DNA of 64,000 bases, taken from positions 558,001-622,000 of the forward strand of contig QYRS01000007.1 of NCBI GenBank assembly GCA_006503535.1. The letters run 5' to 3'. Under the pieces are notes generated by a model, which searched no databases, was not told the DNA's origin, and was given only the letters and a program-made list of their open reading frames with translations. This DNA is from Arthrinium phaeospermum. Lineage: Eukaryota > Ascomycota > Sordariomycetes > Amphisphaeriales > Apiosporaceae. The number at the start of each line of letters is the position of its first letter. The first letter of the stretch is position 1. The position numbers and the translations under genes were made by a program. Positions 20,364 to 40,511 of this stretch are shown in pieces.

Positions 20364-23300
20364 ATGCGGCACCCTGCCCTTCCGGGCATCTTTGCTGCCT
20401 TACTTGGGTCAGCTTCGGCTCAACAGTATGGCGGCGGAGGTGGAACTGGCATCAACCCATCCTCTGTTCCAAACTCTGGCCCTGGAGGTGCTGGAGGTTC
20501 TGGCTCTGGAGGTCCTGGCGGATCTGGATCTGGATCTGGAGGTCCTGGCGGCTCTGGCATCGGCACCTGCCCTCTTCCTGAGCCCACTACTGTCTTCGTC
20601 ACCATCACCACAGCTGTAGTTCTTCCACCTGCCACTACTGTTACAGTCACTGAGCCCTACCCTCCTTTCGACTACACTCCTGGCGTATCTGCTCCCGGAC
20701 CTCAATGGCCCTCTGGTTTGCCTCCTGCTGGATCCCTCACTGTTCCCTGTGCCACTGGTCCCAACGGCGAGCCTATTCCATCTATCCCTGGCCTTGTCAC
20801 TGTGACCTACCCAGGCCCTCCTGGTGGCTCTCCTGGCGTAGGCACTTTCTCACTTGTCACGGTTCCTCCTACAGGCCAGAGTGGCTATCCAGGTGGCCCT
20901 TTTGGTGTCTCTTCTTCCCCAGGCGGACCTGGAGGTCAAGGCATGAGTAGCGTTCCAGGCTGGGGCTCTTTCGGCTGGCCACCTGAACCTACAGTTACCG
21001 TTACTGCTTCTGAGGGTACAGCTACCGGACCATGGGAAACATATAGTTACGGTGCGACATATCCATACCCAGAACCCACACTCACTCTGTCATACAACCC
21101 TCCTCCTGGTGGCAATGGTGGTGGTGGTCAGGGTGGCTCTTCCTATCTCCCCCCTGTCACTGTCACTGCTCCTGAAGGCTCTCCAGGCGGCCAAGGTGGA
21201 TCAGGCTTCCCAACTGATACTGCCACTAACCCATACGCCCTACCAACCGTCACCCTGACAGTGCCTGAAGGTGGAACAGGCGGCTCGAGTGTTCCTGGTG
21301 GCCCTGAAGGAACAGGCGGCACGTATCCATTCCCTGAGCCTACATTGACTTTGTCCTACAATCCTCCTGGTGGTGGCAGCCCTGGCAGCTACGGCGGACA
21401 AGGTTGGACCTCTATCCCCGAAGGCGGCAACGGGCCCTCCAGCCCTTTCCCAGAAGTCACCATTACTGTACCTCCCAACGGTCAACCCTCTGCCACTCCT
21501 GGAGGTCCTGGTGGCGACGGGTGGAGCAGCACACCTGGTGGCGGATGGGGCCCCTCCATTCCCTTCCCAGAAGTCACCATCACTGCACCACCATATGGTC
21601 AAGGCTCTGCCCCTCCTGGAGGTCCCGGAGGTCAAGGATGGACCAGCACACCTGGTGGCGGATGGAGCCCTTCCAACTCTTTTTCAGAAGTCACCATTAC
21701 TGTGCCACCAAACGGCCAAGGTTCTGCACCTCCTGGAGAACCTGGAGGTCAAGGATGGAGCAGCACGCCTGATGGTGGGTTCGGTCCTTCCAATTCTCTG
21801 CCAGAAATCACCATCACTCTTCCTGATACCACTCTTACTTTTCAGTACACGATCCCCAATGAACCTGGCAGTGGTGAAACCAGCAGCATCCCTCAAGGCG
21901 GTTACGGCGGCGTCCCTCCAACCCCAACAGTCATTGTCTCTACCATTGGTGTCACACCCAGTGGGGGGAGCCCAGGTGGCCCAGGCGGCTCTGGCGGTTC
22001 TGGAGGTTCCGGGGGCTCTGGAGGTCCTGGGGGTCCAGGGGGGTCAGCTAGCGAGACTTTCTCTGGCGGCTACGGCTGGCCAAGCGCAAGTAACGGCGGA
22101 CCTGGAAGTCAAGGAAGTGTGCCGTCAACTCTCACTATTACCTTGCCCAACACTGAAGATCAAGGATATCCGACCACCCCAGCCTTGGTATCTCCAATCG
22201 TGTCTACCTTGTCTGGCACAATCACTGTTACTGTTCCCAGTATTCCTTGGGGTCCAGTCGGTATGTTTATGAGCCTGCCCAACCGTGTGCTCCGACGATG
22301 CTAACATTCAGCTACAGCAACACCGCCTGGGCTTGGCTCTGCCACCTTCTCGACGCCATGCCCTGAAGAAATGACAACACCTGGTGTCCCTGGGGTCGTC
22401 ACCATCACGGCGGGTTCATCGACTCCCAGTGAAGTGACTATCTGGCCACTACCAACCACAGAAACAACACCCAGTGTCGTGACCATTTGGCCAGTCTCAA
22501 CAGAGGAGACCCCTAGCCTCATAACGATCTGGCCTAGTCTTGAAACCATTTGGCCAAGCAACACTGTTGGCACGCAGCCTTCGGGTCAAGGATCGCCCAA
22601 CACTTCCTGCCCTGAAGATGAGGCAACTGCTGCTGATCCTGAGGGAGCAACTTCCACATCCACTCTTGCAACAACCTCCACATCGACCCTCGCATCTTCC
22701 ACATCTACCCTCGTACTGTCTTCAACATCGACTTCAACAAGCCAGGCGTCTGATGCTGGCGCTGTAGGGGCAACTTCGACATCAAGTCTGCTCTCTTCGG
22801 TCCCTACAAGTGGATGGAATGCAACGATTGTGACAGATCTCTCATCTGGTACTTCATCAGCTTTGACATCGTCTGTTACAACCACTTCGCTTCCATTGAC
22901 ATCAACAGACTCGTCCACGTCCACAGTCTTGTCATCGTCCAGCGCTTCAGTTACCAGTAGCTCGACAATCAGTTCCTCTACGAGCTTGTCCACTACTTCA
23001 GAATCGTCGCTGTCCTCTTCGTCGGTGGTTTCTTCAGACTCGTCAAGCATCCCGGCGACTACTACAAGCTTGACACAGTCATCTCAATCCACTTCGACCT
23101 CGCCCAGCTCTCAAGCACCATTCACCAACTCGTCAACTGTTGCAACACAGTCATCGAGCACGTCGTCAGCAATGAACTTGACCACGGCATCTGCTCCAAC
23201 GCCTTCGCTGGGCTTGACCCAGATGGCCCTTCAGACTCCAAATCCCACTGCCAGTTTGACTATGGCCACAGTCCCGAGTCCAGTGGTCATTCCTGCTCAG

Positions 23301-24031
23301 CCTTCCGATGATGGTAATGGCCCGAGCAAGCGCGCCCCTTCCTGCGGCAATCTGGCAGATTCGGGTAATTTCACATTTGACGTAAGTTATCCTTTGAACC
23401 CAATACTGGGCCTGTACGTGCTGCTAACATTACCCAGTTCCAAGATATCAAGCGACTGATGCGAGGTGCACGCACGGAACCGCATGATCCTCGCCCCGTG
23501 CCTTTCTTGAGCCCTTACCACCGTTTCTGGTTCTCGGATGGAATCGAGGCTGCCAATTCACAATCGTCGGGCAAATTGGTTCTCCAGTACTTGCAACCAG
23601 CGATGGACATGGATGACGGGACCAACATGTCTGCAATCTTTAGCACAGGCCCCAAACAAACCACTGAGTGTTTGGCATTCGACTTCTACAGTATCCGTCT
23701 GGGTTGTTCTTCTTCCGAGTCGGAATGCATCTTCACGCTCAAGGGCCTTCGATTGGATGCTGAGGTGGCAGCGGAAGTCGTTCATGTTCCTGCCTGCCCC
23801 TCGAGCGACTGCAGCCTCAAGCATGTTCCTGTCATCAACTACACGTCTCTTACATCCGTCGCAATCAGCCTGAAGGCCCAAGACGAAGACCAGATGTGGT
23901 GGGCTGATGAGCTCGCCTTGGGCTGGTCCAACAACGACTGCGAGCAAGCTGCTTGCCGATCTCAGGTGCATGACACCATCCGCAGCCGAGACTGGATGGT
24001 GGCTGGCAAGAAGTGGCGACGTGGTATGTAA
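20364..24031 (+). CDS. Large secreted Gly/Pro/Ser/Thr-rich repeat protein (adhesin-like cell-wall protein)
   Basis: Three exons, 20364-22260, 22312-23381 and 23438-24031, give 1186 residues (1184 if the alternative acceptor at 22318 is used). A signal peptide (cleavage after Ala19 in GSASA/QQ) is followed by a Gly-rich start and Val/Thr-Pro beta repeats, including an exact 39-residue (117-bp) unit. Next is a collagen-like GGSGGSGG/GGPGG run, a TIWP repeat, a Ser/Thr-rich stalk of about 220 residues (heavy O-glycosylation expected), a dibasic Lys-Arg site at 23328-23333, and a Cys-containing C-terminal domain of about 200 residues with FLSPYHRFWFSDG. That domain resembles carbohydrate- or surface-binding domains on other fungal stalk proteins but I cannot name it. 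There is no evident GPI signal: the end is basic (KKWRRGM). Likely exported to the wall or matrix. Confidence 0.85.
21451..21825 (+). repeat. 117-bp tandem repeat in the surface-protein gene
   Basis: The anchor CAGAA(G/A)(T/A)CACCAT occurs at 21451, 21568, 21685 and 21802, an exact 117-bp (39-codon) period: three full units and the start of a fourth. Each unit encodes PEVTIT(V/A)PP, a Gly/Pro segment (GGPGGQGW) and STPGGG. Copies differ by point changes only, so the array expanded by unequal crossing-over or slippage while staying in frame. Confidence 0.9.
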
Positions 24032-35100: not shown

Positions 35101-35164
35101 ATGAACACCATAAACTGTCAATTCGCATAGGCATCTGTCCCTCTTCATATTTCCTTATGCTGCA
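32150..35164. promoter_or_regulatory. Long intergenic region upstream of the RGS-LOV gene
   Basis: 3.0 kb, the largest gap. It contains a gene fragment-like frame at about 33275-33489 (see separate entry) and a pyrimidine-rich tract at about 34970-35050 just before the next ATG, consistent with a promoter and leader. Many short frames on both strands show no family features. Confidence 0.4.
33275..33489 (+). other. Isolated coding-like fragment
   Basis: From just after a TGA, a frame reads RFVPVFLGAISGQM and continues with KILVCTIAEILQ, ending at a TAG at 33487-33489, about 70 codons. Residue composition (alternating hydrophobics, Gly, Ala) is protein-like and the segment starts after a possible acceptor. 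No matching upstream or downstream exon was found. It may be a relic exon or chance. No family is recognised. Confidence 0.2.
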
Positions 35165-38028
35165 ATGGCTGCAGATGGCTTTCCAGTACAGGCCGAGGAA
35201 GTGGCTTGGCATGGCCGGGATGGTGCCGACCGCCCGCTTGACACAAATGGCGACAGCAGCAATGGCGAGCCGGGGCCACTGAGTCAAGCCTTCACAGATC
35301 GAAGCGCAGCCGGGTCCATTGCAGCCGCACAGCAGGCCATCGTGGGCAGGGGCAGTTTCGGTATCACCTACTCCGACCAACGCTGCCAGTCACTTTCTCT
35401 GTCCCAAAAACAGCATGGGGCATTCGGCCTCGCCTCCCGATCCAAGTCTGTAGCCTCAGTTCACCGAAGCAACAGCCGGACCAGACCGCTTTCCAGCATG
35501 GTCTACTACGATACAGCCGATTCGGAGTCCTCCTCGCAAGATGTAACCGCTCAAATGAGGGAAGCGCGACTAAGGACTGCGAAAGACTTGCCCAGGGTAG
35601 AAAACGGCTTGATCCGGATTCCAAGGAGACAATCATCCATTATTGAGCGCCCCCGAAGTATGATGAGCCGAACACACTCTAGCGAACACGGTTCTGGCGA
35701 CCTGCAGCCGCGGAACGAATTTGAGACACACCCTAATCCCGTGGCTAAACCGACGCGCAACGGCGAAGTCGGCCCCGATAATACCAAGACCCCCTATGAA
35801 ACATATACCGCAGTCCTCCCGGTCGTCTCAAACTCCAGGACCGTACACGGCGAGGATCTAGAAAGCGACTCGAAACCTGATCGAAGTATGAGCTCGACGC
35901 CGGTTGCGCTCGTTCGCCTGGACGAAGACCCTGTCTCGCAATATGAGACTCGTCGACGGAACAGTTACTCTAGCATCTCGTCCCGACTCTCGGTGCCTGC
36001 CAGTTACAGTTCGACTGTCAAGCGGCCCAAGACACCTTCACAGTCTCGTTCACACTCGATCCAGGGAGTGGGACCGTTCAGCCGGTTTGATACAAACGGT
36101 CGGCACCAGTCCCCCTTACGGAACCCGTCGGTGCATGTGCTTCCATACGTCGATGAAAATGGCGATTGGGTCGAGTTCAGTGGCGACGGCGCAATTACTA
36201 CCGAAGCCGAAGTTAACACAAATGGAGGCGGATCAGTAGCGTCAGGGATGTTAGGGAGGAGGCCGAGCGTCGCGACAATCAAGAAAGCCCCATCGCAGCG
36301 TGGGAGCCTCAGCAGCCGCGGTTCGAGTCGCCTGCCCGATTTCTTCAGCCAACAGGTATTTCAAGTTGTGCTGCATAATCCCGCGACGGCGCATCACCTT
36401 CTCAAGTTCAGTGAAAATCGAGTATGCAGCGAAAACGTCGAGTTTCTGGCAAAGGTAGGTTTATCGCCGGAACGGAATTTTCTTACCTGTGACAATCATT
36501 TTCGCTAAATAACAACTATACAGATTGAGCAGTACCATACGACCCTAAACCAACTCGCAGATATTATGACAGGCATCCACAAGACTTACATGACGCACCA
36601 GTCGCCGCATCAACTCAACGTGCCCGGAAAACTGCTCAAGGAGGTCCACAAGAGGATGAAGTCGATCGTCATGACCAAACTGCCAGCTATGGAAGCCCTT
36701 TTCACGGAAATGGAAGTACTGGTGGAGCAGCTGGTCTTCACGGATATCTACCCAAGATTCGTAAACCACCAGCTCACACTGAATGCGAGCAAAGCTTTGG
36801 CAAATGACCGGTCCAAGTTCCAAGGACTGGGCGACTGCTTTTGCTTGACGAGCCCAAGGTGTGTGATTTCGCGGTTGTCATTATACCTCACTGGACAGAC
36901 GGTACTAATGCGATAGGGACACTGCAGCCTCGCCGATAATCCCGTTGTGTATGCTTCGGACGGGTTGATCAAGGTCACTGGATATAGTCGCACAGAAATC
37001 ATTTCCCGGAACTGTCGATTCCTACAAGGAAAGCTGACGGACCCCGTGCCGGTGCGGCGCCTGAGGAACGCGATGATTGAAGGCAGGGAAGCAGTCGAGC
37101 TGTTGCTCAACTACAAGAAGAACGGAGACCCGTTCTGGAACCTGCTCTATATCGGTGAGTCGAGAATGCACATCCCCCATCCGAACCATGGCATCTCTTA
37201 ATGAGACTGACTTGCTTGTCAGCTCCCCTTATAGGCGAAAACGGCGAAGTTGCCTTCTGGCTAGGCGGGCAAATCAACTGCTCCAGCACGATTCACAACA
37301 GTGCCGATGTCATGCGCGTGCTATCAACGTCGAAATCGGACGAAGCCGAGCAGTCCCAGGCCAGCCAAAACCATATCCAGCCCCGTACCTCCTTTTCACG
37401 AACTCTACTCCGCGCTCTCGGCTTGCGCAACGACAGCAACGCCAACCCGCTCAAGTCTGTGACCTCATTCGATGTCGGATCGGTGACGGGCGCTGGCGGC
37501 ATGGAACAGGACGTGCTGGGCCGCATGGAGGGCCAAGATCTGCCGACGCAGATCAAGGAGTTCTACACGGCCTACTCCAAATACATTGTGGTGCGCGCCG
37601 ACTCGTTCGTCGTCCACTTCTACTCGCAGGGGGTCGCGGACGTGTTGCATCCCCTGGGGGGCCAGAGCAACAGCAGCAGCAGTAGTAGCAGCAATAGCCC
37701 GACGATGCTGGACGGCGGTGGCAGCAATGGTGCCGGTGCGAGCAGGACTAGCAGCAACGAGAGCACAATGGTCGGGTCAGACGTGTTCAAATTCCTCAAG
37801 AGCTGCATGATCGGCCCCTCGGCGGCGGCGGCGGCGGGCGACTACAAGAACCGCGTCCGCAGCTGCGTGCGCGCGGGTCATCCCGTCAGCGTCGATTTGC
37901 GGCTGCAGACGCGGCGCAGCGCCAAGTTCCGCGGCGACGAGGCGTTCGTGGTGCACTGGACGCCGCTTAAGGACGAGCGGGCCGTGGCGCACTGGGTCAT
38001 TGTCACGCTGGTGCCGACGATTCCTTGA
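35165..38028 (+). CDS. RGS-LOV protein (blue-light receptor fused to an RGS domain)
   Basis: Four exons, 35165-36454, 36524-36858, 36928-37154 and 37223-38028, give 885 residues; introns are 69, 69 and 68 nt with correct phase. Residues 1-385 are a disordered Ser/Arg-rich region. An RGS-type helical domain (about 389-521: FFSQQVFQVVLHNPATAHHL through FVNHQLTLNASKAL) precedes a LOV domain (about 535-645). The LOV core has NPVVYASDGLIKVTGYSR and SRNCRFLQG, with Cys571 the residue expected to form the flavin adduct, then YKKNGDPFWNLLYI and GGQINCSSTIH. Right after the LOV core a basic amphipathic stretch (SFSRTLLRALGLRN) resembles the membrane-binding helix described for Botrytis BcLOV4. The C-terminal domain is a conserved alpha/beta region with a poly-Ser insert. 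Known relatives move to the plasma membrane in blue light and regulate G-alpha. Confidence 0.92.
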
Positions 38029-38879: not shown

Positions 38880-40511
38880 ATGATGCACCCTTCGCGTCAG
38901 GCGTATGTGGAGGAAGCAACAGAGGTACAGGCTTCTTTGATACCCTGCAATCACCTGCCAGCAACTAACCCCAGATTCAAGGACCGCACTATCGCTCTGG
39001 AAGACCTGCAAACCGATCACGATTATGACATTCCCGGCGGAGATACCGGCATAGCCCCAGAGAAGGCCTCGGCCATCCTCTCCAAATTCGAGCGCAAGCG
39101 ATTCGCCAATACGATCGCCGTACCCACAGACGATGGCCGCGTGCGCGCGAAGCTCCGCGAGCTCGGCGAGCCGATGACGCTCTTTGGCGAAGACCCGGCC
39201 GACCGGAGAGCCCGTTTACGCGAACTGCTTACCGTGCAGGCTGAACAGCAGGCGGCGTCAGGCGCCGACGGCACGCCCGACATCGAGATGGAGGATGCCG
39301 CCTCCGAGGACGCAGACGACCAGGAAGAAGAGTTCTACACACAAGGAGGCGAGGGGCTCCTCAAGGCGCGACAAGACATTGCCAGGTACTCGTTGCCGCG
39401 CGCCAAGAAGCGGTTGGAATCCCAGAAGGAAGAGAGCGGCATTGTTCTACGCACCCACGTCAAGTTCCGCAAGCAGGTCCGGGAGAGGCTACAGGGATTC
39501 GAGCTACAAGGCAGTCAGACGGCAGGCGACAGGCATGTCAGTATGACGAGGATATCGCCCAACAGCGAGATGGTGGCGGCGGGCAACTGGGGTGGCAGCA
39601 TCAAACTGATCGAGATCCCTTCGCTGGAGGAGAAGGGCACACTACGAGGACATACCAACAAAGTTAGTGGCATCAGTTGGTTCCCTGGCGCAACGATACC
39701 CGAGCGAGGTGTGAGCCGGGAGTCGGTCAATCTGGCCTCGGGCGGCGCCGAAGGAAAAGTCCATCTATGGAGTTTGGAGAAAGACACGCCGTTATCGACA
39801 CTGGAAGGCCATGCCCAACGAGTCTGCCGCGTTGAGTTCCATCCTTCAGGCCGTTATCTAGCCAGCGCCAGTGAAGACACGACATGGAGACTCTGGGATG
39901 TGGAGACCACGACAGAACTACTACTGCAGGAAGGTCACTCGAGGGGTGTATTTGCAATCAGCTTCAATACCGATGGTTCGCTCTTGGCCAGCGCGGGCTT
40001 GGACAGCATCGGCAGGATCTGGGATCTACGTTCAGGACGGACAGTCATGATCCTGGATGGTCACCAGGACGGACACATTAAGCCCATCCACGGCCTTGAT
40101 TGGAGCTCCGACGGCCACCGCGTCCTGACAGGGTCAGCGGACGGCTGGATCAAGTGCTGGGACGTCAGAAAGGTGCAGCGGACGGGCGGCATCGGCGCGC
40201 ACAAGAGCGCCGTGTCGGATCTGCGGTGGTACAAGGGGCTGGACGACCCCCTCGAGGGTACAGTGCAACCGGGACTTGATGATAAGGGCAATCGGCTCCC
40301 GAAGAAATCTAGTACCTTCTTCGTGTCTAGCGGGTTCGACAACAAGGTCAACATCTTCTCGGCGGATGACTGGTCGCTGGTACAGAGCCTGAATGGCCAC
40401 ACTGGTCCCGTAGCGAGTGTGGACGTGAGCAGAGATGCGAGATGGATCGTCAGTGGAGGCCACGACAGAACTGTGAAACTCTGGGGTCGCAATGACGGAG
40501 AAGGCATTTAA
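38880..40511 (+). CDS. prp4: U4/U6 snRNP splicing factor Prp4 (PRPF4), WD40
   Basis: An N-terminal SFM motif (FANTIAVPTDDGRVRAKLRE, then LGEPMTLFGED) is diagnostic for Prp4/PRPF4. It is followed by a charged linker, a helical segment and about seven WD40 repeats with GHTNKVSG, GHAQRVCRVEFHPSG, SGGHDRTVKLWG and others. Prp4 stabilises U4/U6 with Prp3 inside the tri-snRNP in the nucleus. The frame is open from the ATG at 38880 to 40511 (543 residues). However, 38903-38974 has a GTATGT donor and a CTAAC branch before CCCAG, is 72 nt and contains no stop, so removing it gives a 519-residue protein (MMHPSRQAFKDRTIAL) that I prefer. Both versions keep frame. Confidence 0.93.
   Translation: MMHPSRQAYVEEATEVQASLIPCNHLPATNPRFKDRTIALEDLQTDHDYDIPGGDTGIAPEKASAILSKFERKRFANTIAVPTDDGRVRAKLRELGEPMTLFGEDPADRRARLRELLTVQAEQQAASGADGTPDIEMEDAASEDADDQEEEFYTQGGEGLLKARQDIARYSLPRAKKRLESQKEESGIVLRTHVKFRKQVRERLQGFELQGSQTAGDRHVSMTRISPNSEMVAAGNWGGSIKLIEIPSLEEKGTLRGHTNKVSGISWFPGATIPERGVSRESVNLASGGAEGKVHLWSLEKDTPLSTLEGHAQRVCRVEFHPSGRYLASASEDTTWRLWDVETTTELLLQEGHSRGVFAISFNTDGSLLASAGLDSIGRIWDLRSGRTVMILDGHQDGHIKPIHGLDWSSDGHRVLTGSADGWIKCWDVRKVQRTGGIGAHKSAVSDLRWYKGLDDPLEGTVQPGLDDKGNRLPKKSSTFFVSSGFDNKVNIFSADDWSLVQSLNGHTGPVASVDVSRDARWIVSGGHDRTVKLWGRNDGEGI

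Follow-up and report, generated by a model that had tools for sequence, protein, structure and literature searches.

In Magnaporthe oryzae, the protein MoRgs5 carries an RGS domain followed by a PAS/PAC region. In passages of its description, the RGS domain by itself interacted with MoMagB and with MoMagC in yeast two-hybrid assays, and deletion of the gene raised cyclic AMP about 2.2-fold (PMC3248559). LovB of Fusarium fujikuroi, by its description a LOV protein that also carries an RGS domain, can be compared on that basis only, while rgs-lov of Verticillium dahliae is alike by name only (passages of PMC10056346 and PMC7493669). A gene of this kind lies on the forward strand of the DNA analysed here, a 64,000-nucleotide stretch of Arthrinium phaeospermum (contig QYRS01000007.1, positions 558,001 to 622,000) that is called the window below. 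The gene occupies window positions 35165-38028 and has four exons, three GT-AG introns and an open frame of 885 residues. Its product is firmly placed among the RGS-LOV photoreceptors of fungi, with BcLOV4 as the type. The host genome (48.4 Mb, 19 contigs) holds a second such gene, and within Apiospora the two copies seem to be constrained in opposite halves of the molecule. The initial annotation had proposed a blue-light receptor that couples light to G-protein signalling through recruitment to the plasma membrane; family membership stands, while the mechanism is drawn by analogy with Botrytis.

A first search gave 481 relatives at an expectation value (E) of at most 0.001; the closest among the best 120 of these belong to Apiospora, with A. 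marii at 97% and the following six at 86-93%. A second search, seeded with a longer relative to bring in Leotiomycetes, gave 349, of which the best 120 added 43 relatives, including Botryotinia convoluta and Sclerotinia. The resulting alignment has 166 members: 163 listed proteins together with the window protein and two paralogues from its own genome. The alignment with RGS-LOV proteins that had been suggested as a check matches the Botryotinia protein (P0140) at 38% over 543 residues. Pfam recognizes the RGS domain at residues 399-513 (48.0 bits, cut-off 23.9), N-terminal to the LOV domain; the whole domain spans residues 393-520 (36341..36793, split by intron 1). PAS_9 is found above its cut-off at residues 534-632 (57.2 bits). 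The LOV domain extends over residues 534-641 (36833..37293, split by introns 2 and 3) and its LOV part matches solved structures, oat LOV2 and other LOVs, at E 7e-28. Flavin-pocket residues are present, and so is the photoactive Cys571 (codon TGT, 37013..37015), which is Cys in 166/166 aligned sequences.

The second RGS-LOV gene, on contig C8, encodes 851 residues and keeps both the C-terminal PAS-type domain and the basic segment. In a tree of 45 rows, with six of the eight window-type and seven of the eight C8-type copies, the two sorts form separate Apiospora clades, each fully supported. The listing also has both sorts for another four Amphisphaeriales species, three of which carry the two in a single assembly. 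The window copy sits on a long branch; uniting it with the second Amphisphaeriales clade is not rejected (p 0.15), and neither is a tree that unites both Apiospora copies (p 0.131). A third gene (C2:1968500-1974500; 767 residues) is very divergent. Its RGS and PAS_9 domains are above the Pfam cut-off and it has a basic segment KSRRLFDSFRRR with a charge of +8. The LOV motif reads GQNCSLLQ, so that the Cys is kept and the Arg and Phe of NCRFLQ are altered, as are the equivalents of N128 and R167 of RGS4. A further LOV gene at C1:2609000-2613500 has the motif GRNCRFLQG, and its adjoining frames look, by eye, RGS-like helical and C-terminally PAS-like, so that it possibly shares the architecture.

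The Apiospora copies differ most clearly in the RGS domain. The RGS4 residues E87, N88, N128, L159, D163 and R167 correspond to E423, N424, N462, L500, D504 and R508, in a register checked against RGS1. Five of these are scored as Galpha contacts (E87, N88, N128, D163 and R167). The window protein keeps all five, as do 8/8 window-type copies and 5/5 members of the second Amphisphaeriales clade; the full set occurs in 0/8 C8-type copies and 0/5 members of the first Amphisphaeriales clade. At the place of N128, C8-type copies carry Q, T or G, as against D in the first clade; N88 is lost in five of eight C8-type copies and in none of the first clade. Variable columns were compared at the protein level, with the same six Apiospora species names for both copies and the window genome included. 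In the RGS domain, 5 of 128 columns vary in the window copy against 41 of 128 in the C8 type (p 2e-9), and three of those five lie at the junction of exons 1 and 2, where the P0004 model differs. The LOV shows no difference (9/99 versus 13/108, p 0.51), and the C-terminal domain differs in the opposite direction (43/159 versus 21/139, p 0.016). The RGS domain is less different in the window copy in 15/15 species pairs, which are not independent. In the three species with both copies in one assembly, the counts for window and C8 type are 3/128 versus 25/128 in the RGS domain, 3/99 versus 7/108 in the LOV and 30/160 versus 10/139 in the C-terminal domain.

Because of the size of the RGS difference within one genus, a division of labour between the two Apiospora copies is the simplest reading of these sequences, and probably the right one. 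Some points count against it. Four other Amphisphaeriales do not show the reciprocal constraint (60 versus 61 variable RGS columns of 128), the split comparison was chosen after the identity table was known, its columns are not independent any more than its species pairs, and in A. marii and A. kogelbergensis, perhaps also in A. arundinis, each copy was taken from a separate assembly. A fuller version is tentative, and we would sooner doubt than hold it in all its parts: a BcLOV4-type receptor would have been duplicated and its functions split in Apiospora. The window copy, with a frozen RGS domain and a loose C-terminal half, would be the light-gated G-protein regulator. The C8 copy, with an intact LOV-PAS part and basic segment and a decayed RGS domain, would bind membranes or partners. 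The family's 'domain of unidentified function' would be another PAS domain, one without flavin, that keeps the basic segment clamped in the dark. A genus in which one copy is constrained in one half of the molecule and the second copy in the other would separate the G-protein role naturally from that at the membrane, and each half of the mechanism could then be studied by itself.

We regard it as likely, though by no means assured, that the window gene, one of a duplicated pair and the member on the G-protein side, encodes a BcLOV4-kind photoreceptor that acts through the following chain. Blue light would form a flavin-Cys571 adduct, as the conserved pocket and the fold suggest. Strain passing through the Jalpha-equivalent would then release the basic segment (residues 674-686), which in the dark would be held by the RGS domain and, as proposed here, by the C-terminal PAS-type domain. 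Once free, the segment would bind acidic lipids of the plasma membrane; with its lower number of charges, it would probably do so less strongly than its Botrytis counterpart. Membrane binding would let the RGS domain reach membrane-bound Galpha, bind it and perhaps speed GTP hydrolysis; such an action is suggested by the kept contact residues and the near-frozen RGS sequence. Galpha matches above the cut-off are present in the genome on C11, C5, C2 and C6. The C8 copy, with its PAS-type domain and basic segment kept, has drifted in the RGS domain; this drift and the lost contact residues point to a probable division of work.

Other explanations have to be weighed against this chain. Misleading database names (Phototropin-1A, Aureochrome1, MFS transporter) occur among the RGS-LOV relatives (P0010, P0014, P0053 and others), and the first two could suggest a common LOV protein of the phototropin, aureochrome or white-collar type that was mistaken for RGS-LOV. 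That identity has practically no chance and is refuted by two results. A Pfam scan at E of at most 0.1 gives RGS and PAS families only, with no protein kinase, no bZIP domain and no White collar 1-type GATA zinc finger beside the LOV; furthermore, the RGS domain is present and the Botryotinia alignment runs over 543 residues. The RGS domain itself raises doubts. The helical domain named in the initial annotation is borne out by Pfam and by the contact residues, but its helix geometry is not cleanly that of an RGS fold. The AlphaFold core model draws the region with one helix of 31 residues and one of 60, with a predicted local distance difference test score (pLDDT) of 88-95 up to residue 150 of P0003 and lower beyond. 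Canonical RGS domains have separate, shorter antiparallel helices; with the helices fused as drawn, N462 and D504/R508 would therefore not sit together. By eye, the sequence of the first long helix (31 residues) has no obvious loop, and the solved-structure matches listed are LOV/PAS chains or fusions, uninformative about the RGS fold. At least one of the five contact residues is missing in 102 of the 166 aligned sequences, so that 64 keep them all. On a rival reading, the RGS part would have given up GTPase activation and would serve as an elongated helical module, either for dimerisation or to clamp the LOV-PAS core, light governing membrane binding or clustering only. The inhibitory role in the dark ascribed to the BcLOV4 RGS domain in one section of a review (PMC8993538 section 28) would agree with this. 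We consider it unlikely, since the Pfam match covers positions 2-112 of the 117 in the profile, the contact residues are in register with RGS1, and the RGS domain of the window copy is near-frozen, though a dimer interface could freeze it too. The binding of Galpha by the MoRgs5 RGS domain in yeast two-hybrid assays also speaks against it. In the same excerpts, however, MoMagC was bound by all eight RGS proteins, which makes that contact weak evidence; deletion of MoRgs5 left conidiation and appressoria unchanged, and its authors allow a role that is perhaps independent of G proteins (PMC3248559).

The membrane step is the other point of doubt. The basic segment SFSRTLLRALGLR (residues 674-686, 37390..37428) aligns with Botryotinia KTSFFKSFKKYK. 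The initial annotation had placed it directly after the LOV core; in fact, if residue 641 is taken as the last of the core, it starts 33 residues further on, beyond the Jalpha-equivalent. Its position between the Jalpha-equivalent and the C-terminal domain is kept, and R677, R681 and R686 are present. The alternating basic and hydrophobic stretch is there and conserved, but its amphipathic pattern does not exceed chance: an equally amphipathic segment turns up in 16.7% of linker shuffles, the median fraction across the family is 0.15, and only 17/123 sequences fall under 0.05. Moreover, in a scan of all 18-mers the highest basic amphipathic stretches fall within the RGS domain (residues 459-483). 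Amphipathicity was therefore rejected as proof of the segment, and weight was put on conservation: 1.2-2.8 bits per column over 674-686 against 0.1-1.6 over 655-673 and 687-709, with one flank column at 2.0 (n=123). Such conservation inside a variable linker indicates that the segment is more than chance. Against a strong membrane role, the AlphaFold model gives it no confident helix (pLDDT about 54 or below, at most four helical residues), although a segment that a model leaves mostly unfolded may or may not turn helical at a membrane. Residues 670-690 carry a net charge of +3, which is in the lowest class (43/166, the C8 copy among them); the 22 Leotiomycetes lie between +4 and +9. At position 676, 124/166 sequences have R or K, but all eight window-type copies have Ser. 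The linker past the segment is also longer, at 21-23 residues versus 10 in the other copy. These features would suit an allosteric scheme in which the RGS domain already meets Galpha and light regulates it without membrane recruitment in this copy. That scheme is improbable, as every one of the eight window-type copies has R or K at positions 677, 681 and 686, and the net charge over 670-690 is equal in the other Apiospora copy. The recruitment mechanism set out above remains our preferred account.

The C-terminal domain (residues 732-885, 37564..38025) is predicted to fold as a PAS domain and has no conserved Cys. Three versions of it gave no Pfam match at E up to 10, and its PAS nature is visible only by profile comparison and predicted structure; profile controls against RGS gave probabilities of 3.0 and 0.6. 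The assignment supplies a concrete model for a possible masking of the lipid-binding segment. A Ser/Gly-rich insert (residues 762-801, 37654..37773) lies in a loop of this domain, partly underlain by an AGC repeat at 37666-37693. The initial annotation had named the poly-Ser insert as a lineage feature. The loop has 19-45 residues in the eight window-type Apiospora copies, 8 in the eight of the C8 type and 8-13 in most other sequences, some reaching 56. Also in exon 4, a perfect CGG repeat of six copies (37820-37837) underlies the alanine run at residues 818-822 of this domain. In the literature searched by titles, abstract openings and passages, neither the PAS assignment nor the splitting of the paralogues is reported, and either may be in print elsewhere; a search for Apiospora together with photoreceptor gave none.

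Translation of 35165-38028 confirms the coordinates, the reading frame, Cys571 and the peptides quoted in the initial annotation. Exon 1 (35165..36454) encodes the N-terminal extension (residues 1-392), low in complexity and judged disordered by eye, and the first part of the RGS domain. Intron 1 (36455..36523, phase 0) has a counterpart at the identical place in the divergent C2 paralogue. Exon 2 (36524..36858) holds the remainder of the RGS domain and the LOV start. Intron 2 (36859..36927, phase 2) ends at acceptor 36927, because acceptor 36916 disrupts the frame; the sole intron of the C8 copy lies near it. Exon 3 (36928..37154) carries the LOV core with ISRNCRFLQG and, after intron 3 (37155..37222, phase 1), exon 4 (37223..38028) carries the LOV end, the linker, the basic segment, the PAS-type domain and the stop codon. 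The splice sites match the annotated A. marii protein P0001, whose model starts at window-protein residue 167. An in-frame stop at 35111 precedes the ATG at 35165, and the start Met and initial residues are shared with two other Apiospora models, P0004 and P0007. A rough light-element pattern, GATCNNNNGATC, occurs 0 times in the window versus 1.69 expected, and the idea was dropped. The product of the next downstream gene (38880-40511, same strand) is a WD40 protein that has a PRP4 motif and probably acts in splicing as a factor of that kind, while long repetitive open frames at 20364-23459, rich in Gly/Pro and Ser/Thr, look like a cell-wall or secreted protein.

The analysis thus adds a PAS-type C-terminal domain and split paralogues to the initial annotation, and corrects it on the LOV motif, on the position and charge of the basic segment and on the RGS geometry, which is doubtful. 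The Ser noted before RNCRFLQ is indeed there, but the family residue at that place is Pro in the 166-sequence alignment, not Gly. The Pyricularia protein P0067, which is presumably MoRgs5, belongs to the same family and has its RGS domain before the PAS. Unlike the window protein, it and the other two Pyricularia sequences (P0062, P0121) read SKNCRVLQ in place of PRNCRFLQ, and the equivalent of D163 is lost in 2/3 and that of R167 in 3/3 (Ala). Four other Magnaporthales listed (P0058, P0059, P0061, P0063) keep the Pro. The LOV-PAS part of a Brucella LOV histidine kinase (PDB 6pps, 6ph3) also has a LOV followed by a PAS, and the core model aligns with it over a stretch spanning both; however, the domain placement fails to superpose (root-mean-square deviation >20), and the window protein has no histidine kinase. 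The nearest comparison is with P0140 of Botryotinia convoluta, from a cluster of 32 sequences, which serves as a stand-in for BcLOV4 of Botrytis cinerea and is assumed to be close. Both proteins have an N-terminal extension, RGS domain, LOV with NCRFLQ, Jalpha-equivalent, basic segment and conserved C-terminal domain in the same order, the last at 33.6% identity over 143 aligned residues. Unlike P0140, the window protein has Ser where P0140 has Pro before RNCRFLQ, a longer N-terminus, a Ser-rich loop in the C-terminal domain and a basic segment of +3 rather than +6. Furthermore, unlike the BcLOV4-type reference, it is one of several copies in its genome.
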